A stretch of 64,000 bases of DNA from Planctomycetota bacterium. Lineage in GTDB: Bacteria; Planctomycetota; PLA2. A program made the translations under genes and the position numbers. The notes below the pieces were generated by a model. The model was not told where the DNA came from and did no database searches. It saw only the letters and a list, made by a program, of their open reading frames with translations. Location: contig JAJFFF010000022.1 of the NCBI GenBank assembly GCA_021776785.1, forward strand, positions 1 through 64,000, read 5' to 3'. Positions 18,508 through 54,392 of this stretch are shown here, piece after piece. Each line of letters opens with the position of its first letter. Position 1 is the first letter of the stretch.

Positions 18508-19125
18508 ATGGGTAGTTCATTTGGTCTCGACCGCGACGCGTTTCGCCAGCTGTTTGAGGAGCACCGCGAGCCGATCTTTCGGTATCTGGTGCGGCTTTCG
18601 GGCAATCGGCACGATGCGGAGGACCTGCTTCAGGAGACGTTTGCCCGCTACTGGCGCAAGCAGGAGCAGTTTCGCGGCGAGGGCAGCATCGGTGGATATC
18701 TCCGCCGTATCGCGTACCGGACCTTCCTCAACGCCCGCAGCAACCTCTCGCGCGCCCGGTCGGCCGCTCCGCTCGAATCGGTCGAGCCGACGCTCGGGGA
18801 GCGGGGGCCCGCCGCGCGCGCCGAAAAGCGGGACTGGGAAGCGCATCTGCTTTCCGCCGTACGAAAAGTCGTCCTTGACCTGCCTGACTCGTGGCGAGAC
18901 GCGTTCATTTTGTTCCGATATGAGGGACACACGATGAAAGAGATCGCGAGCCAGCTCGACATTACGCCCAAAGCGGTGGAAGCGCGTCTGGCGCGAGCGC
19001 TGCGCGCCGTTCGGGCGGGGCTTGGCGACGTTGTGCAGGACCGGGACGATCGCGCGTCGCGCGGCGACGATGCCTCGCGGCCCTCCGCGTCTCCGAAGAA
19101 TCGCGGAACCGGGGGCGTTGTATGA
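18508..19125 (+). CDS. ECF RNA polymerase sigma factor (module A)
   Basis: A 205-residue sigma-70 family protein with only regions 2 and 4. Region 2 runs FRQLFEEHREPIFRYLVRL through RHDAEDLLQETFARYW; region 4 has AFILFRYEGHTMKEIASQL and ITPKAVEARLARALR. The tail after residue 180 is Arg/Ser/Asp-rich. Its stop overlaps the ATG of the next gene, a membrane protein likely to be its anti-sigma. It is the paralogue of the sigma at 52714: both share RHDAEDLLQETF, FRGEGS and RRIAYRTFLNARS. Confidence 0.92.
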   Translation: MGSSFGLDRDAFRQLFEEHREPIFRYLVRLSGNRHDAEDLLQETFARYWRKQEQFRGEGSIGGYLRRIAYRTFLNARSNLSRARSAAPLESVEPTLGERGPAARAEKRDWEAHLLSAVRKVVLDLPDSWRDAFILFRYEGHTMKEIASQLDITPKAVEARLARALRAVRAGLGDVVQDRDDRASRGDDASRPSASPKNRGTGGVV

Positions 19126-20315
19126 CAGGCCCCTGGCTGGAGCGGATGCGCGACTACGTCGGCGGAAATCTCAGCGTCGACGACGCGGCCGCGTTTCTGA
19201 AGTCTTGTCGCGACGACCCGGAGCGAATGGAGCTCTTGGAAGCCTACGAACTCGTCGCGCGCGCGCAGCCCGCACCGATCGCGCCTTCGACGACTACGTT
19301 TGAAGATCTCCCGCTGGACGACGTGCCGCTTGACGATGCTGTCGCGGCCGCCCAGGGATCGTCTCGTGCATCTCCGCCGCTCGCGTACCGATGGTGGGTT
19401 GCAGCGGCGGTCGCGTTGCTCGCGATCGGATGGTCGCTCTGGGCGAATCGCGATGCTGGCCTAGACGCGAACGAAACCGCAGACCGCGCGGGCGCGCGGC
19501 CCACGGTGACCCTGCAGGCGCTATACGATGACGCTCCGGTCCCGGACCGGCCGCTTGCGGATCTCGATGTGCTGCCCGACGACGCGACGGAGATGCGGAC
19601 GGCGGATGAGCACGGACTTGTGTGGATGGCGCTGCTCGAGGACGCGCGCCACATCGCCCGCTTTTCAAACCGGCGCATCCTGTTGTTTGTCGAGTACCCG
19701 GGGTGCCCGCTTTGCTTGGGGTTTGCGCAAGACGAGTTTCAAGACGCGGAAGTGATTCGGGCAGCCGCCCCGTTTGTGTTGGTTCGATTGGATTGGCGCG
19801 AAACGCCGCGCGCGCTGCGGCACCGCCCGGCCGAAGGTTGGCCGCTGTTTTTCGTGCTCGATCCCAACGCCCAGGACTGGGACGCGAAGCCTTTGGCGAC
19901 GCTCAAGGGAAATCGCGACGCAGCGGCGATGACTGAGTTTTTTAGCGCGAACGCGCCGGCGGCCGCGCCTCGCTGGGATGCATGGACCGATGCGCTCCAG
20001 CGCTTGCGTGAGCTCGCCGCGGACGCACCGTTGCGGGATCGTCTCGACGCTTTGGAGCGCGCGCGGACGATGGGCGGTGCGTTGGGCGACTACGCCGATC
20101 ATGCGTTGGCTCGCGCGCACCGCGACGCGCAAACGGCGCTGCGCGGCGTGGCGCAGCAGAAGGACGCCGCGGGCCAGTTAGAGGCGATGCGCGGTTTGAT
20201 GGACCGCTACGCCGGAACGCGCTACGCGGCAGACTTTGCGGCCGTTACGGCCTTTCTTGAAACGCACGGCGTGTGGCCGGAGTTGGTTGCTCCTCCGGGC
20301 GCCGCTCAGCGGTAG
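19122..20315 (+). CDS. Putative anti-sigma factor fused to a CPLC thioredoxin-like domain (module A)
   Basis: This 397-residue protein has three parts. A short cytoplasmic N-terminus (about 1-48) resembles anti-sigma N-domains but lacks the HxxxCxxC zinc motif. One membrane helix lies near residues 90-107. An extracytoplasmic domain follows with ILLFVEYPGCPLCLGF; the CPLC at 195-198 sits after a beta strand exactly as the CxxC of thioredoxin-fold proteins. A helical tail of about 110 residues follows. The ATGA overlap with the sigma gene supports a sigma/anti-sigma pair. Regulation by thiol redox state or by a bound partner is inferred. A full-length paralogue is at 53259. Confidence 0.75.
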   Translation: MTGPWLERMRDYVGGNLSVDDAAAFLKSCRDDPERMELLEAYELVARAQPAPIAPSTTTFEDLPLDDVPLDDAVAAAQGSSRASPPLAYRWWVAAAVALLAIGWSLWANRDAGLDANETADRAGARPTVTLQALYDDAPVPDRPLADLDVLPDDATEMRTADEHGLVWMALLEDARHIARFSNRRILLFVEYPGCPLCLGFAQDEFQDAEVIRAAAPFVLVRLDWRETPRALRHRPAEGWPLFFVLDPNAQDWDAKPLATLKGNRDAAAMTEFFSANAPAAAPRWDAWTDALQRLRELAADAPLRDRLDALERARTMGGALGDYADHALARAHRDAQTALRGVAQQKDAAGQLEAMRGLMDRYAGTRYAADFAAVTAFLETHGVWPELVAPPGAAQR

Positions 20316-28773: not shown

Positions 28774-29361
28774 ATGGCAGTAACAGGTGGCGAAGCCCTC
28801 ATGCTCCGAATGGCAACCGGGGACGTGGTTGCGTTTGAGGAGATGCTCTCTTCGCATCAGGGGATGGCGTATCGATTCGCCTACCGCATCTTTCGCGACC
28901 GCCATATCGCGGAAGACGTAAGCCAAGAGTTCTTTTTTAAGCTGTTTCGCAACGCCTCACGCTACGAGCCCGCGGGCAAGTTCAAGACGTACTTCTACAA
29001 AGTGCTCAACAACTTGTGCCTCGACACGCTGCGGCGGATGAATCGCAAGTCGCTCCCGGACTTCCAGTCGTTTGAGAATCCGATTCTCGACGGCATGCCC
29101 GAGCGCGACGATCGCGGTGCGCCCGACGACCATGCGCGTGTGCGCGAAGAGCGCCGGTTGGTGCGCGAGGCGATTCAGCAGCTCCCGGATCCGCAGAGGC
29201 GAGTGATTGTGTTGCGGGAGTTGGAAGAGTTGAAATATCGGGAGATTGCCGAGGTCTTGGGGTTGAGCCTTAACGAGGTGAAGGTGCTCATCCATCGCGG
29301 GCGAAAATCGCTCCTCAAGATCATGCGGCGTTCTCCCCTCTTTGAGGGCCATGATTCATGA
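28774..29361 (+). CDS. ECF RNA polymerase sigma factor (module B)
   Basis: A 195-residue two-region sigma factor: region 2 has YRFAYRIFRDRHIAEDVSQEFFFKLF and TYFYKVLNNLCLDTLRR; region 4 has LPDPQRRVIVLRELEELKYREIAEVLGLS then VKVLIHRGRKSL. It is more distant from the other sigma factors in the window and closer to general SigE-like types. Its stop overlaps the next ATG (ATGA). It is transcribed divergently from the NtrC-like operon, with about 190 bp between starts. Confidence 0.93.
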   Translation: MAVTGGEALMLRMATGDVVAFEEMLSSHQGMAYRFAYRIFRDRHIAEDVSQEFFFKLFRNASRYEPAGKFKTYFYKVLNNLCLDTLRRMNRKSLPDFQSFENPILDGMPERDDRGAPDDHARVREERRLVREAIQQLPDPQRRVIVLRELEELKYREIAEVLGLSLNEVKVLIHRGRKSLLKIMRRSPLFEGHDS

Positions 29362-30935
29362 TCAGTGACGAGATGCGGGAGCTTCTGTCGGCCTATGTCG
29401 ACGGCGAGCTGCGCGGCTCCGACGCCGTACGGATCGAAGCGTTGTGCAAACGCGATCCGGCGATCCGGCGCGAAGTCGTGGACTACCGCAAACTACGCGC
29501 GCGGCTTCGCGCGTGGGACGAGGCGGACCATCCCGCCGACGCGCCCATGGGTTTTCGACAGCGGATGGTGGAGCAGGCGCATGCACAGCAGCGCGCGGCC
29601 GATCGACTGCGCGACCGATTTGGCGCGTGGTTGCAGCCGCTTCCGATCGCGGCTGGTTTGCTCGTCGCGACGGCGTTGGGCGTAACCGCGGCAGTGATGG
29701 GCGCGCCGGCGTCCGTCCAGATGCAAGACGAGCGCGCCGCGATCCCGTTGCCCGAGTCAGAACCGACGGGTTCGTTGCGCGTCAATCCCGGTGCGGAATC
29801 GCCGCCGCTGGAGTTGCCGGCCTCGAGCGTCGCCGACGCGGAGAGCTTCCGCGACGTCATGCGGCGTCGCTTGGACAACCGGATTGTGAACGGGCACGCG
29901 ATGTCCGACGATTCGATCGCGCTGCAAGAAGAGATGAAGATGCTGGTCCTGGCGTGGGAACGCCGGCGTGCAGCCCGCGAACCGATGCCGCGTGAACGGC
30001 GCACGGTGACGGCTCCGGTCGACCCGCGCATGACCGCGCTGATGGCGCCGCTGAGCGTCGTTTCGGCGCCCCTTAGTGGTTTGGTGTTGCTGCGCCGCCC
30101 GCAGATTCCGGCGAGCGCGTTTGCCGCCGAGGTGGCCACGACCGTCGCGACCGATGCGGACGGCGAGACCAACCTGTATGTGAGTTCGCCGCAGCGCAAG
30201 CCGTTGATTATTCCGGCCGGGACGGTGTGGGTGGGGGCGCTCGATAAGAGTTACCGCACGCGCATCGCGACGCGGACCAGTTGGCTTAACAAGGCGGATC
30301 TGATCCCCACGGTTTGGGCCGACACGATCGAAGCGCCGCGTGGACGCGGTGCGTATGCGCGCAAACTCAGTTCGCAGCCGATCGTCTTGGGGCCGCGGAC
30401 GCGACAGGCGTTGCTAACGCGTTCGGGCAAGGACCAAGAGGCGCGCGCGGTTCTGCAAAAGATCTACGGTTCGCGCCCGCTGCACGAGCTGATGGCGAAG
30501 AGTCAGCGTGCGCGCGAGCGTACCGTGACGCGCTTGATGCGTGCCCTGGAAGGCGATGGCCGCGCGAACGGGTTCGTTATCTTCTCCAAAGAGGGCAACG
30601 TGCTCGGCGCAGAGCTGTTCGGCAGTCGCGCGCTCATGCTCGAAATGGCGCCGCGTTTGTTGCACGGTTACCTGCTCGAATCGGGTCCGGTATCTTTGAA
30701 GACTTCTGTCGCCTTGCAGGCATCCGGCTCGCACGACACGATGCACAGTGCCCAAAAAATCTTCGAAGAGTTGATGGCCACGTGCTCCATCCGTGACGTC
30801 GCGGGCGGCTCGCGCGAAGGCCGCGACGACTGGCCCAAGGCGTTGCGCCGCGTCAACTTCGCGGTCGGCGGCACGATCCGCGGCCATGGTCTGGTCTTTG
30901 GCGACCGACCGGTCCACGTGACTCTGTTTCCGTAA
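29358..30935 (+). CDS. Putative anti-sigma factor with C-terminal ARPP-1-like domain (module B)
   Basis: The N-terminus (MRELLSAYVDGELRGSDAVRIEALCKRDP) is a classic anti-sigma/zinc-finger-like helical start, here without a full zinc motif. A membrane helix lies near residues 95-115. After a linker, residues from about 265 to 440 resemble the ARPP-1 domain (DUF6569): a strand-rich part with RKPLIIPAGTVWVG, and a closing ANGFVIFSKEG...GAELFGSRALMLEMAPRLLHGYLLES that matches how that domain ends. The remaining 85 residues are unassigned. The 525-residue protein overlaps the sigma gene, so sigma sequestration with extracytoplasmic sensing is inferred. Confidence 0.75.
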   Translation: MISDEMRELLSAYVDGELRGSDAVRIEALCKRDPAIRREVVDYRKLRARLRAWDEADHPADAPMGFRQRMVEQAHAQQRAADRLRDRFGAWLQPLPIAAGLLVATALGVTAAVMGAPASVQMQDERAAIPLPESEPTGSLRVNPGAESPPLELPASSVADAESFRDVMRRRLDNRIVNGHAMSDDSIALQEEMKMLVLAWERRRAAREPMPRERRTVTAPVDPRMTALMAPLSVVSAPLSGLVLLRRPQIPASAFAAEVATTVATDADGETNLYVSSPQRKPLIIPAGTVWVGALDKSYRTRIATRTSWLNKADLIPTVWADTIEAPRGRGAYARKLSSQPIVLGPRTRQALLTRSGKDQEARAVLQKIYGSRPLHELMAKSQRARERTVTRLMRALEGDGRANGFVIFSKEGNVLGAELFGSRALMLEMAPRLLHGYLLESGPVSLKTSVALQASGSHDTMHSAQKIFEELMATCSIRDVAGGSREGRDDWPKALRRVNFAVGGTIRGHGLVFGDRPVHVTLFP

Positions 30936-42347: not shown

Positions 42348-42529
42348 GCCTCGATATCGGCGGACCGCGAAAAAGACCGAAGCGTCCCAACTGTCTCACC
42401 CGCCCCGATCCGACACCCTGGGCGTAACGCGTTGGCGATTCCCTGTTTAGAGAGCGCTTTCGGGCAAAAAAAGTCGGTTCCGGGGGATTTTGCTGCGCGT
42501 TTTTGCGAGCGTGGTCCGTCTGGTCTGTG

Positions 42530-43087
42530 ATGCAAGCGGAAGTTTCAGCGGCGATGGGCGGCGATCACGAAGCGTTTACCCGGCTTTATCGCCGGTATGC
42601 ACGGCCCGTGTTCTTAGAACTCGTGGCGCGTTTGCGGCGTCGTCACGATGCCGAAGACGTGTTGCAGCAAACGTTCGTCACGGCGTGGCGGGCGTTGCCG
42701 CGATTGCGCAAACCGGATCGCTTCGTGCCGTGGCTGTTTCGCATCGCACGCAACAAGGCGCGTGACCACATGCGTCGCGATGGCGCCCGCGGGCTCCGTC
42801 TGCACGATGTCGATTTGTTGGCTGCGGTGGGAGACGACACGCAGCCGCGCATCGACGCGGTCCGCGACTTGGTCGCCGGGCTCAAGCCGCGTTCGCGCAC
42901 GATCGTGCTCTTGCGCGCCGTGGAGGGGTGGAGCGCCGAGGAAGTCGCGCGCTCCCAGCGCATGAGCGTGTCGACGGTGCGGCGGCACTACAACCGCGCG
43001 CTTGCTCAACTGAGAGAATCACTGACCAGGAGAAAGTCCGATGACGAAAAACAAAAAAACCGAACAACTCGTCGCCTCAGCATATGA
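42530..43087 (+). CDS. ECF RNA polymerase sigma factor (module C)
   Basis: From the ATG at 42530 (a GTG lies one codon upstream) this is a 185-residue sigma factor. Region 2 has AFTRLYRRYARPVFLEL, RRHDAEDVLQQTFVTAWR and PWLFRIARNKARDHMRR; region 4 has LKPRSRTIVLLRAVEGWSAEEVARSQRMS and VRRHYNRALAQLR. Its last 47 bases overlap the next gene, whose Shine-Dalgarno lies inside this frame, which argues for tight coupling. No classical anti-sigma follows; instead come three ExbD-like membrane proteins. Confidence 0.93.
   Translation: MQAEVSAAMGGDHEAFTRLYRRYARPVFLELVARLRRRHDAEDVLQQTFVTAWRALPRLRKPDRFVPWLFRIARNKARDHMRRDGARGLRLHDVDLLAAVGDDTQPRIDAVRDLVAGLKPRSRTIVLLRAVEGWSAEEVARSQRMSVSTVRRHYNRALAQLRESLTRRKSDDEKQKNRTTRRLSI
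43028..43032 (+). promoter_or_regulatory. Shine-Dalgarno inside the sigma gene for the first ExbD-like protein
   Basis: AGGAG eight bases before the ATG at 43041 lies within the 3' end of the module C sigma gene. It fixes the start of the next gene and shows that the 47-bp overlap is genuine. Confidence 0.8.
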
Positions 43088-44297
43088 GCATCTGCATCCG
43101 TCCACGAGCGTCGAAGACGGCGTGCTCGCGGAGTTGACGCTGGAGCGCGACGGCGCGCGCATGACGGCGCGCCTGTGGATGGGGGTGGCCGCTGCTGCGC
43201 TCTTGGGCGCGACGTTGCTTTTGGCGCTCGCGTTTCGCGGCGGAGACGCCAGCTCACCCGACCTGCATGTTGCGGGGGAAGGCGTCGCGTTGCCGGTCGT
43301 GCAACAGCCGTTGGCGGCGATCCGCAAAGCGAAGCGATCGATCCAGGTGCGCGTGACCGACACGGGGCAGGTCACCGTCCGTGGCGATCAAAAAGAGAAC
43401 GCGTGGCGCAAGGTTTCGCTCGAAGGGTTTACAAGCTACCTCCAAGAGTTTGCCGCCGCGTACACGTCGGGCTTGAAATGGAAGCAGAGGAAGGCGAAGT
43501 TAGCGCACGTGCGCATCATCATGGCCGTAGACAAGAGCGTGTCGTGGCAGCACGTGCAATGGCTGATGCAGGTCTGCGCCGAGCAGTCGTTTGGCAATAT
43601 CGCGTTTGAGTTGATGAGCGCTGACAAGAAACGGTTCCTCTTTGACGCGTCGCTTCCAACTGATCGTGGCATCGGTCCCATAGGCGACGGGATCGAAACG
43701 GTCGATGGCGAGATGATCGAAGAAGAGATCGAAGAGGAACCCGAAGAAGAAATCGTCGAAGAAGAAATCGAAGTCGTCGACGAGAGACCGGAAGAAGAAC
43801 CAATCGTCGAAGAGGATCCGAAAGAAGAGATGGAAGAAGAGATCGAGGTCGAAGAAGAGATCGAAGAAGACTTGGACAAGCGCCTCGACGGACACAACGA
43901 GAGGCCGGACGCCGACGAGCCGTTTCGCGGCCCGCGCAAGGGTGATCGAATCGGTATTCGCCGTACGAAGGAAACCCTGACCCTCGACCTAAAGATCGAT
44001 GTCAGATGGAACAAGGACCGGACGGCAGTCGTGTATCGCATGATGGGGAGGCCGGCGATGACGCTCAAAGACGTGGTCAAGTTGGTCCGAGACGGTAAGC
44101 GCGCGATCAAAGTGATGCCGGCAACACATCGCGCCGAAGCGCGCGGCAGCCCGGACGTGCCGTTCGGCGCCGTAGCGGCGTTGGTCGCAACGCTGCGCGC
44201 CGAGGGCGTGAACAAAGTGTCGTTTCGCGGCACGCAACTGCCGACCCAGGAGCAACGCCTGGCGCCGTTGTTGCCCAAAGTGAAGTCGTCGCGGTAG
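43041..44297 (+). CDS. Single-pass membrane protein with two ExbD/TolR-like domains and a Glu-rich linker
   Basis: 418 residues. A cytoplasmic N-terminus of about 44 residues is followed by one membrane helix (45-65). A first ExbD-like domain runs from about 100 to 195 (IQVRVTDTGQVTVRG, VRIIMAVDKSVSWQHVQWLMQ). A highly acidic linker at 221-283 is made largely of EEEIEEE-like repeats. A second ExbD-like domain lies at 312-398, ending DVPFGAVAALVATLRAEGVNKVSF. ExbD/TolR proteins normally have one such domain and pair with an ExbB/TolQ motor, absent here. The N-terminus could be an anti-sigma contact; that is inference from position only. Confidence 0.75.
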   Translation: MTKNKKTEQLVASAYEHLHPSTSVEDGVLAELTLERDGARMTARLWMGVAAAALLGATLLLALAFRGGDASSPDLHVAGEGVALPVVQQPLAAIRKAKRSIQVRVTDTGQVTVRGDQKENAWRKVSLEGFTSYLQEFAAAYTSGLKWKQRKAKLAHVRIIMAVDKSVSWQHVQWLMQVCAEQSFGNIAFELMSADKKRFLFDASLPTDRGIGPIGDGIETVDGEMIEEEIEEEPEEEIVEEEIEVVDERPEEEPIVEEDPKEEMEEEIEVEEEIEEDLDKRLDGHNERPDADEPFRGPRKGDRIGIRRTKETLTLDLKIDVRWNKDRTAVVYRMMGRPAMTLKDVVKLVRDGKRAIKVMPATHRAEARGSPDVPFGAVAALVATLRAEGVNKVSFRGTQLPTQEQRLAPLLPKVKSSR

Positions 44298-44373
44298 CAC
44301 CACAACGCGCAGCGATTGCATCCGATAGAATAGCCGCGCGCTCGCCGAACCATGGACGGCGAGCGCGCGCACT

Positions 44374-45276
44374 ATGAACAAACGAGGTTTCTGGAGTCGT
44401 TGGTATCCCGTCGTTGTGGTCGTGCTCGTGGGAGCGACGTTGGCCTGCCTTCATGTTTGGAAAACGGGAACCGACGAAGCTAAACGATCCGTCACGTTGC
44501 GCGTTGAGGCGGACGGCCAGCTCTCCTTGCGCACTTGGCGGTGGAACGCGATCACGAACGCCGAACTCGTAGCGCATCTGGATCGGTTGGCGCGCCACCA
44601 TATCGACCGCTACTTCGACGTGGCGAGCATCCTGCGACACGACTTGGCGGACATTCCGGTGCGCATCCACGTTGCGCACGATGCGAGATGGGGCGATGTG
44701 CGCGGCGTTGTCCGTTCGGTCGTTGACGCACACTTCACCGATGTCTTATTCCACGTCGGCCAAAAAGGGGGCGGCACCGCAGAGTGTCGAGTGTTCGAAC
44801 TGACCGACAATAAGAAACACGTGGCCGCGCCCTACAGCCCTGGGCGCTTCGAAGTTTCAGACGAAGACTTGGAGCTTGCGCAGTGGGTCATTGGGCTCGG
44901 TGGATCCAATCTTCCTGACTGGAGGTTTGACATCACGGTCGTCGTGGAGTGGGACGTAGATCGAGCGGGATTTCTGTACTCGGTCGGACGAGGGGCCCGC
45001 CGGTCCGCGGGCGAAGTTGTTTACGCGATTGGGAAAGCGGTACACAAGCTGCGTGAAGAGAAGCGGGGCGAGAGCACGGAGTTCACGCTGTTCGCGATGG
45101 CATACCGCGACGTGCCTTTCTCCGAGATCGCGGCCTTGATCACCGGATGTCGCGAGCAAAGTGTCGACAAGGTGCGTTGCGCGTTTCTTGAGACTACGGA
45201 AGGCGCACGAGCGGCCGTGGCCACGTCGCGAGCAGCGAAAGAGAGGGCGACGCGGAAGGCGAACGATGCCGAGTAG
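44374..45276 (+). CDS. Single-pass membrane protein with twin ExbD/TolR-like domains (second copy)
   Basis: 300 residues: a short N-terminus, a membrane helix at about 11-28, one domain from 38 to 150 (VTLRVEADGQLSLR, PVRIHVAHDARWGDVRGVV) and a second from 185 to 290 (FDITVVVEWDVDRAG, then DVPFSEIAALITGCREQSVDKVRC). The IGLGG before the second domain and the DVPFxxIAxLIxxCRE motif are shared with the next gene. It lacks the long acidic linker of the first copy and follows it by 76 bp. Confidence 0.72.
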   Translation: MNKRGFWSRWYPVVVVVLVGATLACLHVWKTGTDEAKRSVTLRVEADGQLSLRTWRWNAITNAELVAHLDRLARHHIDRYFDVASILRHDLADIPVRIHVAHDARWGDVRGVVRSVVDAHFTDVLFHVGQKGGGTAECRVFELTDNKKHVAAPYSPGRFEVSDEDLELAQWVIGLGGSNLPDWRFDITVVVEWDVDRAGFLYSVGRGARRSAGEVVYAIGKAVHKLREEKRGESTEFTLFAMAYRDVPFSEIAALITGCREQSVDKVRCAFLETTEGARAAVATSRAAKERATRKANDAE

Positions 45277-45309
45277 CGAGAATCTCATGTCTGAAACGAT
45301 GCTGAAGCC

Positions 45310-46242
45310 ATGAGACGCAACACGGACGCGATAGTCTGGTCGACCGAGGAGAGCGATCGAGATGGCCCTCAGCGTTGGCGGATCGGGATCTCGATCCTCG
45401 CAGCCGTGGTTGCGTGCGTGGTGGCGGCCTACCTCTGGGATCATCGCGCACCGGCGTTTCTAAACAACGTCATGGTTCGTTTGGATGAGCGTGGGCAGAT
45501 CACCATCCGGCGCGGAGCGTGGCGCGACTACTCGTTACAGCAACTTCAGGACTACTTGGCTGAAATCGGCAGCAACGTGACCGGCGCGGATGCGACCTAC
45601 AGGAGCCAGCCGTGGCTGTTCCGGCACAAGCTCGAACAGGTTCGAATCACGCTCCGCGTGGATGAACGGGCGTGCTGGGATCACGTGCGATTGATACTCA
45701 CCGCCTGCAACGCCGCCGCTTTCACGAGCGTCTCGGTGCGTGTGCACATCGCGGACGGTGATACCTTGGAGTTCCCCGACTTCGTCGCGCAGCGAGGGAT
45801 GGACCAAGATCCTGAATTGAGATTTCGCCCGGGCGATCTGGATCGCATGAACTCCGAACTTGAACTCAGTCCGATCATCGGACTAGGGGGCGGCTACGAT
45901 CCGGACGCGCCGGACTCGCGGTATTGGGTTCCCGTATCGGTTGTGTGGCGGGAGCCCGGCCAACGCCTCTTTTACGCGTTTCCCGATGGCGGCCGCGCAT
46001 CCCTACCGGACGTGAATCACGCGGTCGAACGCGCCATCGCACGTGTAATCGAAAGTCATCCGGAGCAAACCATCGAATTCAGCTTGACGCTGGCTTGCGA
46101 GCCGGACGTTCCGTTCGGCCCGATCGCCGAGTTGATCGTCGCGTGCCGCGAACGCGGTGTTACAAGGGCTACGTGCAACGGATTGACGGCGCCGCCGGCC
46201 GAACGCACGGCTTCTCGTCTTCCAATCCCGCAGTCGCGATAG
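45310..46242 (+). CDS. Single-pass membrane protein with twin ExbD/TolR-like domains (third copy)
   Basis: 310 residues with the same plan as the previous gene: membrane helix at about 23-43, first domain 53-148 (VMVRLDERGQITIRR, VRITLRVDERACWDHVRLIL), IIGLGGG hinge, second domain 200-295 ending DVPFGPIAELIVACRERGVTRATC. It lies 33 bp after its paralogue, so the three copies and the sigma gene form one likely operon. Charged N-terminal residues (about 22) face the cytoplasm. Confidence 0.72.
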   Translation: MRRNTDAIVWSTEESDRDGPQRWRIGISILAAVVACVVAAYLWDHRAPAFLNNVMVRLDERGQITIRRGAWRDYSLQQLQDYLAEIGSNVTGADATYRSQPWLFRHKLEQVRITLRVDERACWDHVRLILTACNAAAFTSVSVRVHIADGDTLEFPDFVAQRGMDQDPELRFRPGDLDRMNSELELSPIIGLGGGYDPDAPDSRYWVPVSVVWREPGQRLFYAFPDGGRASLPDVNHAVERAIARVIESHPEQTIEFSLTLACEPDVPFGPIAELIVACRERGVTRATCNGLTAPPAERTASRLPIPQSR

Positions 46243-46247
46243 GCGCC

Positions 46248-46790
46248 ATGACCAACAACACGGGCCACACGTTTCAGCCGATTCGATCCGACGACCGGGA
46301 TGCGGTCGCCGCGTTTCTTGTCGCGAGCGAGTGGCCGTTTCACGTTTACACGACGTACACAACGGAGCGCGCGTTGGAAGTGGTGGACGACGGTTTCGCG
46401 TGGGGCGCAACGCTCGAAGCGCATTGGATGATGCAGGGCGACGAGCGTGTCGGCATCGTGCGCGTGTTCGACCTCAACGACCCGACCGCACTTTTGGATT
46501 TGCGCATCGCGGGAGGCGCGCGCGGTCGCGGACTAGGCAAAGCGATGGTGCGATGGATCACGGACCACGTGTTTCAAAACCACGCAACCGTGACGCGCGT
46601 CGGCGGATACACGCGCATCGACAACACGCCGATGCGCCGCGTGTTCGAACAATGCGGCTACCAAAAAGAAGCGCACTATCGCCGAGCGTGGCGCGACGAC
46701 AACGGCCCGCAACACGACACGATCGGCTACGGCATCCTGCGCGATGAGTGGGCGAGCGGGACGGTGATGCCCGTGCCGTGGGACGCCTAG
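46248..46790 (+). CDS. GNAT-family N-acetyltransferase
   Basis: 180 residues. The core AGGARGRGLGKAMVRWI is the acetyl-CoA pyrophosphate loop (R/Q-x-x-G-x-G/A), followed by YTRIDNTPMRRVFEQCGYQKE, the usual end of GNAT folds. It probably acetylates a small molecule or amine; the substrate is unknown. It starts 5 bp after the third ExbD-like gene and could be its co-transcribed last gene. Confidence 0.88.
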   Translation: MTNNTGHTFQPIRSDDRDAVAAFLVASEWPFHVYTTYTTERALEVVDDGFAWGATLEAHWMMQGDERVGIVRVFDLNDPTALLDLRIAGGARGRGLGKAMVRWITDHVFQNHATVTRVGGYTRIDNTPMRRVFEQCGYQKEAHYRRAWRDDNGPQHDTIGYGILRDEWASGTVMPVPWDA

Positions 46791-47251: not shown

Positions 47252-47326
47252 CGGGGTGTGGCTCAGCTTGGCTAGAGCGCTGCGTTCGGGACGCAGAGGT
47301 CGCTGGTTCGAATCCAGTCACCCCGA
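47252..47326 (+). tRNA. tRNA-Pro (anticodon CGG)
   Basis: A full cloverleaf is visible: 7-bp acceptor (CGGGGTG with CACCCCG), D stem GCTC/GAGC, anticodon stem CTGCG/CGCAG with loop TTCGGGA giving CGG at 47287-47289, and a T arm around TTCGAAT. The discriminator is A and the CCA is not encoded. A hairpin-type terminator follows at 47336-47364. Confidence 0.95.
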
Positions 47327-52713: not shown

Positions 52714-53262
52714 ATGGTCTGGGAATCTCGGGAGCGGATTGAGTTTCGCCAGCTCTTCGAGACGCAAGCGGACGCCCTGTTTCGATACCTGTACCGACTC
52801 GCGCGCAATCGCCACGACGCCGAAGATCTCTTGCAAGAGACGTTCGTACAGTTGTGGAGAAAGCGCGGCCAGTTTCGGGGCGAGGGTAGCTTTGCCGGCT
52901 ACGTGCGCCGCATTGCGTACCGGACCTTTCTGAATGCACGTTCGCGGCTGGCCCGCCGCAACGGCGCCGTTTCGCTCGACAGCAGCCCTGAGCCGCTCGA
53001 CAGCGAACGCGGCCCGGCGGAAGCGGCCAGTCGCGACGATCTCGAGCAGTTCGTGCTCGCGCGCGTCCGGCAAGCGGTGAATGCACTGCCCGACTCGTTG
53101 CGCGAACCGTTTGTGCTCTTTCGGTTTGAAGGACTTCGGCTGAAAGAGGTGGCGGCAGTGCTCGGCATCACAACCAAAGCGGCCGAAAACCGCGTGGCGC
53201 GCGCGCTCCATTCCGTGGCCGCGCAAGTGGACGACCTACGCACGGAGTACGGAGGGCGATGA
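52714..53262 (+). CDS. ECF RNA polymerase sigma factor (module D)
   Basis: 182 residues, regions 2 and 4 only: FRQLFETQADALFRYLYRLAR, RHDAEDLLQETFVQLWR, YVRRIAYRTFLNARS; region 4 LPDSLREPFVLFRFEGLRLKEVAAVLGIT and AAENRVARALHSV. Closest relative in the window is the module A sigma, nearly collinear over its whole length. Its stop overlaps the next ATG. Confidence 0.93.
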   Translation: MVWESRERIEFRQLFETQADALFRYLYRLARNRHDAEDLLQETFVQLWRKRGQFRGEGSFAGYVRRIAYRTFLNARSRLARRNGAVSLDSSPEPLDSERGPAEAASRDDLEQFVLARVRQAVNALPDSLREPFVLFRFEGLRLKEVAAVLGITTKAAENRVARALHSVAAQVDDLRTEYGGR

Positions 53263-54392
53263 TGGATCTCGAAACCATGCGCAGCTACGTCGACGGCACC
53301 TTGCCCGACGAAGACCGTGCGGCGTGGGAAGCGCAACTCGCCACCGATCCCGAGTTGGCGCGCGCCGTCGAGACCTATCGTCTGATCGTGCGTGCGACGG
53401 ATGTGCCCGCGCCCAAACGTTCCGCTCCGCTTACGTTTTCGCGCAAGGGCGAACCCGTGTGGCGTCGCCGTCTCGTGACGGGCGCGGTCGCCGCCGCGCT
53501 GCTCCTTGCCGCGAGTTTCGCGCTCTGGCCGCAACCGAAGGCCGCCGATTCGCGCGACATCGCGGCTGTTCCCATCGCCCCCAAGAGCGTGTCGCTCCAA
53601 GCGATTCCGCTCGGTCCGATTCAGCCCTTAGACATACCGTCGTGGCCGCGCGCGCTCGCGAGTTTCACGCCGCCGCGCGGCGACGTCCCGCTCGCGTGGC
53701 AAAACGACCTCGCCGAGGCCGAAGCGTGGGCGCGTGCGTCCAACCGTCCGCTCCTTGTGTTTTTGCACCACGAGCAGTGCCCGCTGTGCCGGCAATACGA
53801 ACGCGGGCCGTTCCGGCAACGCGAGGTCATCGCTGCGGCGCAGGACTTCGTGATGCTCAAGCTGACGCACGACGCCGTGCCTGCGTGGATCGCCGAGACC
53901 GTGCCGGAAGGTTGGCCGGTGTTGGCTGTGTACGAGCCGCGCGGTCGCATCCTCGCCGGGCTGACCGGCGTAAAACAGGCCCCGCGTTTGGCGCAGTGGT
54001 TACAGCGCGGCGCGCGCGCGTGGCAAAAGGCGGGGCATCAACCCCCGCCGAGTTGGGACGCCCTGCAAAAAGCCGCACAAAAAATGGAGCAGGCGGCCCA
54101 GGCCGACGACCCCGCGGTCCAACTCGCGCTGTGGAAGTCTGTCGAAACCGACGGGCCGGACGGCGTTTTGCGCGACGCCGCGCGGGCGCAACGCGTAAGC
54201 GTGGAAGCCTCAATCCAAGCCGAGCTGTTCGCCGTGCGCGACGGCCCTCTGGCGCATGCCGCCGCAGCACTTGCGCAACTCGCGCAGGCGTGGCGCGGCA
54301 CCGCATACGCCGACGATCTCGCGCGCATCCGGCGTCATGTCGAACGACACGGCGTGTTTCCGGAGCTGCGCTCCAAAAACCGTGGGGGGTAG
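53259..54392 (+). CDS. Putative anti-sigma factor fused to a CPLC thioredoxin-like domain (module D)
   Basis: 377 residues, a full-length paralogue of the protein at 19122. N-terminus MRSYVDGTLPDEDRAAWEAQL resembles anti-sigma helices and lacks zinc ligands. Membrane helix about 73-90. Extracytoplasmic domain with PLLVFLHHEQCPLCRQYERG, the CPLC at 174-177; then EGWPVLAVYEPRG, equivalent to the EGWPLFFVLDPN of the paralogue, with the cis-Pro region of thioredoxins. Helical C-terminal tail ends RHGVFPELR, matching THGVWPELV in the paralogue. Overlaps the sigma gene by 4 bp. Confidence 0.77.
   Translation: MMDLETMRSYVDGTLPDEDRAAWEAQLATDPELARAVETYRLIVRATDVPAPKRSAPLTFSRKGEPVWRRRLVTGAVAAALLLAASFALWPQPKAADSRDIAAVPIAPKSVSLQAIPLGPIQPLDIPSWPRALASFTPPRGDVPLAWQNDLAEAEAWARASNRPLLVFLHHEQCPLCRQYERGPFRQREVIAAAQDFVMLKLTHDAVPAWIAETVPEGWPVLAVYEPRGRILAGLTGVKQAPRLAQWLQRGARAWQKAGHQPPPSWDALQKAAQKMEQAAQADDPAVQLALWKSVETDGPDGVLRDAARAQRVSVEASIQAELFAVRDGPLAHAAAALAQLAQAWRGTAYADDLARIRRHVERHGVFPELRSKNRGG

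Follow-up and report, generated by a model that had tools for sequence, protein, structure and literature searches.

A 64,000-nucleotide contig stretch of a 5.0-Mb draft genome of the Planctomycetota (assembly GCA_021776785.1, contig JAJFFF010000022.1), referred to here as the window (GC 63.7%), carries the gene of an extracytoplasmic function (ECF) sigma factor followed by the genes of three membrane proteins, c1, c2 and c3 (Table 1). Profile comparisons and structure prediction together show c1 as a predicted single-pass membrane protein in which the periplasmic domains of ExbD1 and ExbD2, without the channel part, have been fused into one periplasmic part. Most probably, c1 is an anti-sigma factor anchored in the membrane that senses through a domesticated ExbD heterodimer, with a ligand that we infer. 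ECF/anti-sigma systems themselves are known; what is probably new is such a system with an ExbD1-ExbD2 sensor module of clear origin.

The first-pass annotation had assigned two ExbD/TolR-like domains to each of the three proteins. This assignment holds on comparison with ExbD1 and ExbD2, although Pfam misses the second domain (D2), which only the comparison with ExbD2 reveals. The Pfam ExbD model (PF02472; cut-off 25.4 bits) gives 30.4 bits for c1, 21.4 for c3 and 17.5 for c2, in each case over its periplasmic part only, and the first domains (D1) of c1–c3 match a D1 profile, built partly from the same sequences, with E values of 1e-26 to 1e-31. In hhalign comparisons with the canonical ExbD proteins of the lineage, D1 pairs with ExbD1 (98.9%, E 1.8e-17) and not with ExbD2 (1.6%), and D2 fits ExbD2 (98.2%, E 5.4e-14) better than ExbD1 (30%). 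At the profile–profile level, this D1/ExbD1 and D2/ExbD2 pairing holds separately in the window's family and in its sister family, and a profile of the twin protein spans adjacent exbD1-exbD2 genes across the intervening stop (E 5e-39). Because D1 matches ExbD1 and D2 matches ExbD2, the twin is a fused ExbD1-ExbD2 periplasmic pair. The D1/D2 sequences are strongly diverged (22–30% identity). A chance or low-complexity match to ExbD was also considered, and was ruled out by the profile comparisons and the fold search.

Shared sequence marks are in line with what had been annotated: DVPFxxxAxLxxxxRxxxV was found in c1, c2 and c3 (DVPFGAVAALVATLRAEGV, DVPFSEIAALITGCREQSV and DVPFGPIAELIVACRERGV, respectively), and IGLGG is confined to c2 and c3, which also match each other by phmmer (E 1e-24). 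Downstream of D1, c1 carries an apparent relic of the motif that follows the membrane helix of ExbD2 (Table 1); for comparison, the sequence after this helix in the genome's canonical ExbD2, encoded on contig C27, is FLPTDKGINPIP. The relatives of c1 have LPxDRG at this place as well.

Structure prediction likewise points to the ExbD/TolR fold, more weakly for c3 than for c1. In the AlphaFold model of c1, pLDDT is about 85 in D1 and about 70–80 in D2, and a Foldseek search of the PDB matched it to ExbD (8pek), to TolR (5by4) and to ExbD with a TonB or D-box peptide (8p9r/8vgd), with a TM score of 0.8 by target. For c3, which is modelled with a transmembrane (TM) helix at residues 22–44 and a D1 pLDDT of 80–90, ExbD 8pek appeared at rank 7 (prob 0.99, E non-significant); since this fold search is weak, the fold claim is founded on c1 and on hhalign. 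A sequence search against solved structures yielded nothing useful. None of c1, c2 and c3 has TPMID, the motif with the channel aspartate, which the canonical ExbD1 and ExbD2 of C27 do have. The absence of an ExbB motor near the locus, noted at first pass, was confirmed, the genome's sole ExbB being encoded on C27 together with tandem exbD1 and exbD2.

The neighbourhood of sigma and twin-ExbD genes recurs. Among 17 genomes of the order, it is present in nine (the window's own, G000, and G002, G006, G007, G008, G010, G013, G014 and G015), which represent both families of the order and show gene overlaps of 4–47 bp. The sigma-adjacent proteins start with an N-terminal tail and a TM helix and end with an ExbD1-ExbD2 module, both halves standing in the same order in 9 of 9 genomes and mostly accompanied by the LPxDRG strand. 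In G002 (Planctomycetota bacterium isolate OFTM341, from the same family as the window), a HEAT-like extension follows the module, and in G008 the reading frame of the gene is broken in the draft sequence. Six of the nine proteins begin with MLSC, MLTC or MWTC followed by HxxxCxxC, a zinc-binding anti-sigma pattern. This zinc finger is missing from c1, G002 and G007; G007, in which the finger is gone and the remaining segment kept, thereby connects the zinc-finger relatives to the finger-less c1.

As a control, an ExbD-like gene was found within reach at one of 75 ECF loci from other genomes that resemble the window's sigma gene, namely that of G002, and the long ExbD-like proteins from outside the order that were inspected in a sample of 392 planctomycetes showed no such anti-sigma gene. 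The sister-family sigma genes form a supported clade, and a joint clade with the window's sigma gene is not rejected (p-AU 0.896); a single clade may therefore unite the sigma factors of the two families, and two independent origins of the sigma/ExbD pairing in the two families are unsupported. In the long zinc-finger relatives (L097, 3287–5392, and its relatives), some 330 residues without a Pfam match lie between the TM helix and D1 and include a conserved Y(T/S/A)G...EPLARALGL block. A degenerate aspartic-protease domain was suspected in these long proteins (LLEEPLARALGL); Pfam finds none, and no claim is made. At two loci from different families (L032, 2815–6723; L079, 3436–7794), an ExbD-like protein is encoded immediately upstream of an ECF sigma factor fused to a long C-terminal part in which carboxypeptidase-regulatory-like repeats were recognised by eye.

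Between D1 and D2, c1 has an acidic linker ending in DEPFRGPRKGDRIGI, of the type seen in a TonB-like protein of the order, at the place where c2 and c3 have IGLGG. A count over 1.48 million translated residues gave 22 distinct contexts for the pattern PFxGP-(2-8)-IG[ILVT]; one of these is c1, and nearly all others are the TonB-like/cyclase modules of the order. Relatives of the TonB-like protein are present in 17 of the 17 genomes; a TonB-like membrane helix with SxxxH is followed by an acidic linker, by the conserved segment PFxGPxxNxxIGLGGGAGG and by a domain resembling a cyclase. Examples of these modules and their variants are L220 (3649–5184), L035 (5025–7970), L244 (3256–5916) and L245 (3272–10852). 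In the TonB-like protein, the segment precedes a squalene-cyclase-like domain; PFxGP..IGLGGGAGG or a variant of it is also found in a VWA-type protein and in a 2526-aa protein, and in some relatives the ExbD twin is joined directly to the acidic linker and the cyclase-like domain.

With regard to the cytoplasmic side, c1 occupies the position of an anti-sigma factor, as had been remarked at first pass: its gene lies directly downstream of the ECF sigma gene and overlaps it by 47 bp, the gene coordinates given earlier being correct, and it has a good ribosome site (AGGAG). The topology predicted from the sequence is a cytoplasmic N-terminus, one TM helix and a periplasmic C-terminus; the short tail is presumably CnrY-like in length. 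The suggestion that residues 1–44 contain a sigma-binding segment fared less clearly, receiving weak support from a profile match, with low AlphaFold confidence there. Compared with the post-finger segment of the relatives' anti-sigma domains, the c1 tail scores 6.5 bits, which 2 of 2000 shuffled sequences equalled, and the G007 tail 25 bits, which none of 2000 did.

Several points count against c1 as an anti-sigma factor with a paired ExbD sensor. The likeness of its tail to the relatives' anti-sigma domains is weak, and without G007 the profile match drops to 10%; no Pfam anti-sigma model matches c1, and AlphaFold does not place the tail. Where the relatives were scanned, their zf-HC2 scores of 13–16 bits are individually below the Pfam cut-off. 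On the periplasmic side, IGLGG is absent from c1, and the TonB-like acidic linker is absent from G002 and the zinc-finger relatives, so that a step involving a tethered peptide cannot be general.

Other explanations were considered. The proteins c1–c3 might be structural or periplasmic ExbD-like accessories that are merely co-transcribed, as a target operon rather than a regulator, with sigma being regulated otherwise. These genomes do encode many multi-domain proteins of ExbD type that have no sigma gene beside them, some of them lipoprotein-like (on contigs C7 and C25); the cytoplasmic parts of c2 and c3 are almost nil (about 9 and 21 residues), and the c1 tail holds no recognised anti-sigma domain. 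Against this explanation, which is quite improbable, the sigma-adjacent protein always overlaps sigma and always has the N-terminal tail and TM helix, the anti-sigma finger HxxxCxxC occurs in six of the relatives, and other ECF genes of the window are paired with the usual overlapping anti-sigma-like partner. That c1–c3 are true proton-motor parts, i.e. ExbD subunits serving the genome's ExbB under their own sigma factor in the style of iron uptake, could be argued from the ExbD domain of c1, which exceeds the Pfam cut-off, and from the one ExbB with canonical ExbD1/ExbD2 elsewhere in the genome. Yet c1–c3 have neither the TPMID motif nor a membrane aspartate and unite D1 and D2 in one chain with one TM helix, and the ExbB operon, which lies elsewhere, is already supplied with an ExbD1 and an ExbD2. 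A role in the motor is therefore extremely improbable, and an ordinary motor ExbD was rejected for the missing channel residue and the lack of a nearby ExbB.

A third explanation shares the anti-sigma part with the reading preferred here and competes with its sensing step only: the ExbD-like part of c1 could be a handy alpha-beta scaffold that senses a small ligand or periplasmic protein unrelated to the motor. This is possible, if doubtful. Two other sigma partners in the window carry thioredoxin-like periplasmic domains, so the lineage appears to mix sensors freely, and the divergence of D1 and D2 would also suit a scaffold. However, none of the nine genomes has lost either ExbD half or changed their order, LPxDRG is mostly kept as well, and c1 has the TonB-like linker, which together suggest that the pairing has been retained.

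How might a retained ExbD pair control a sigma factor? In E. coli, the two periplasmic domains of the ExbD dimer close against one another; when they open, a single TonB strand (the D-box) is gripped between the protomers and peptidoglycan is bound (PMC10771500, PMC10907165). By analogy, the groove of the fused ExbD1-ExbD2 pair of c1 would at rest be filled by the protein's own linker peptide of TonB-like type, and the short cytoplasmic tail would bind sigma and retain it at the membrane. A competitor, which could be the TonB-like protein of the single ExbB-ExbD1-ExbD2 motor, a motor ExbD or peptidoglycan, might displace the peptide; displacement would expose c1 to proteolysis and thereby free sigma. 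Homologues of S2P are present. The proteins c2 and c3, which nearly lack a cytoplasmic tail, could pair with c1 either as partners or as decoys. That the state of a Ton/Tol-type motor is what is read out, with the tethered ExbD1-ExbD2 and the TonB-like peptide forming an engagement or force gauge from which sigma is freed on competition by the TonB-like protein or peptidoglycan, is a tentative proposal on the unlikely side.

Among known systems, FecR, FoxR and PupR resemble c1 in combining a cytoplasmic anti-sigma domain, one TM helix and a periplasmic C-terminus taken from an envelope machine, and they are Ton-linked. FecR-type proteins contain an STN domain (from secretins/TonB-dependent receptors), with predicted pairing by strand addition and release by regulated proteolysis (PMC11637429). 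Unlike these, c1 would sense through ExbD1-ExbD2 instead of FecR/STN; no FecR/STN domain was found in c1–c3, for which the Pfam scan gives ExbD only. With ExbD/TolR (PF02472), c1 shares the fold and the ancestry of both periplasmic domains, but it fuses two different ExbDs, lacks the channel TM helix and an ExbB partner, and is linked to sigma. The six zinc-finger relatives are akin to class I zinc-binding anti-sigma factors (ZAS, zf-HC2) in their HxxxCxxC and in the overlap with ECF sigma; class I and minimal class II (CnrY-type) anti-sigma factors have been described (PMC7406223). From ZAS and CnrY-type factors alike, c1 differs by its periplasmic ExbD pair, and the finger is absent from c1, G002 and G007. 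Finally, the combination of a linker peptide with a pair of ExbD domains recalls TonB or the D-box in the groove of the ExbD dimer (PMC10907165, PMC10771500), all in one chain in the case of c1, although its linker peptide is unlike the E. coli D-box in sequence and its binding is putative.

No earlier description of an ExbD-type anti-sigma sensor was found in the literature searched, the coverage of which was incomplete. If our reading of c1 is true, ExbD joins the few domains of envelope machines that have been turned into anti-sigma sensors, of which the STN domain of FecR-type proteins is the known case. With ExbD1 and ExbD2 naturally linked in one chain, c1 would also allow the way in which ExbD domains pair and open, now a central element of Ton motor models, to be studied apart from the membrane channel, and it would provide a first handle on the stimulus of an ECF group in uncultured planctomycetes.

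Table 1. Features of the sigma-c1-c2-c3 locus (positions in the window).
Feature	Position	Strand	Remarks
Putative autoregulated ECF promoter	42494..42523	+	TGCGCG-YTYTTG-N11-CGTCTGG block
ECF sigma factor, 185 aa	42530..43087	+	Sigma70_r2, Sigma70_r4_2
c1, 418 aa	43041..44297	+	Proposed membrane-anchored anti-sigma factor, fused ExbD1-ExbD2 sensor
c1 cytoplasmic segment, about residues 1-42	43041..43166	+	Proposed minimal anti-sigma domain
c1 transmembrane helix, residues 43-65	43167..43235	+	AlphaFold helix; no TPMID motif
c1 D1, ExbD1-type, residues 100-192	43338..43616	+	hhalign; pLDDT about 85
c1 SLPTDRGIGPI	43653..43685	+	Apparent relic of ExbD2 post-membrane motif LPTDKGINPI
c1 acidic inter-domain linker, end DEPFRGP...IGI	43695..43967	+	TonB-like
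c1 D2, ExbD2-type, residues 305-395	43953..44225	+	hhalign
c2	44374..45276	+	c1 paralogue, membrane-tethered D1-IGLGG-D2
c3	45310..46242	+	c1 paralogue, membrane-tethered D1-IGLGG-D2
GNAT acetyltransferase	46248..46790	+	PF13302, E 7.6e-12; starts 5 bp past c3

The GNAT acetyltransferase gene is possibly the last gene of the sigma-c1-c2-c3 operon. In the gap between c1 and c2 (44335–44369), there is a perfect 13-bp stem with a 9-base loop and without a T tract (gap −32.5 kcal/mol, z −3.4); it may reduce c2/c3 expression or shield the c1 message. Further downstream, a tRNA-Pro (CGG; 47252–47326) is the sole tRNA in the window, followed by repeats and spurious open reading frames to about 48000. 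In several relatives (L107, 975–8876), the canonical ExbB-ExbD1-ExbD2 operon is preceded by TPR-like proteins and followed by a sulfatase-like and a secretin-like gene.

The sigma gene itself runs from an ATG at 42530 to a stop at 43087 and matches Sigma70_r2 (E 6e-16) and Sigma70_r4_2 (E 3e-13) of Pfam; the sigma factor beside the orthologous twin protein of G002 is 62% identical to it. A sigma-70 promoter scan found none. The putative ECF promoter block stands at the same place and spacing before sigma in the window's genome and in G002, a weak comparison of two sequences only, and has three further matches elsewhere in each of these genomes. Three more ECF sigma genes lie in the window (18508–20315, 52714–54392 and 28774–30935), each with a 4-bp overlap by an anti-sigma-like partner. 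Two of these partners are paralogous, with the thioredoxin-like domains mentioned above, and the third has a zf-HC2/RseA_N-like start and an ARPP-1 domain.

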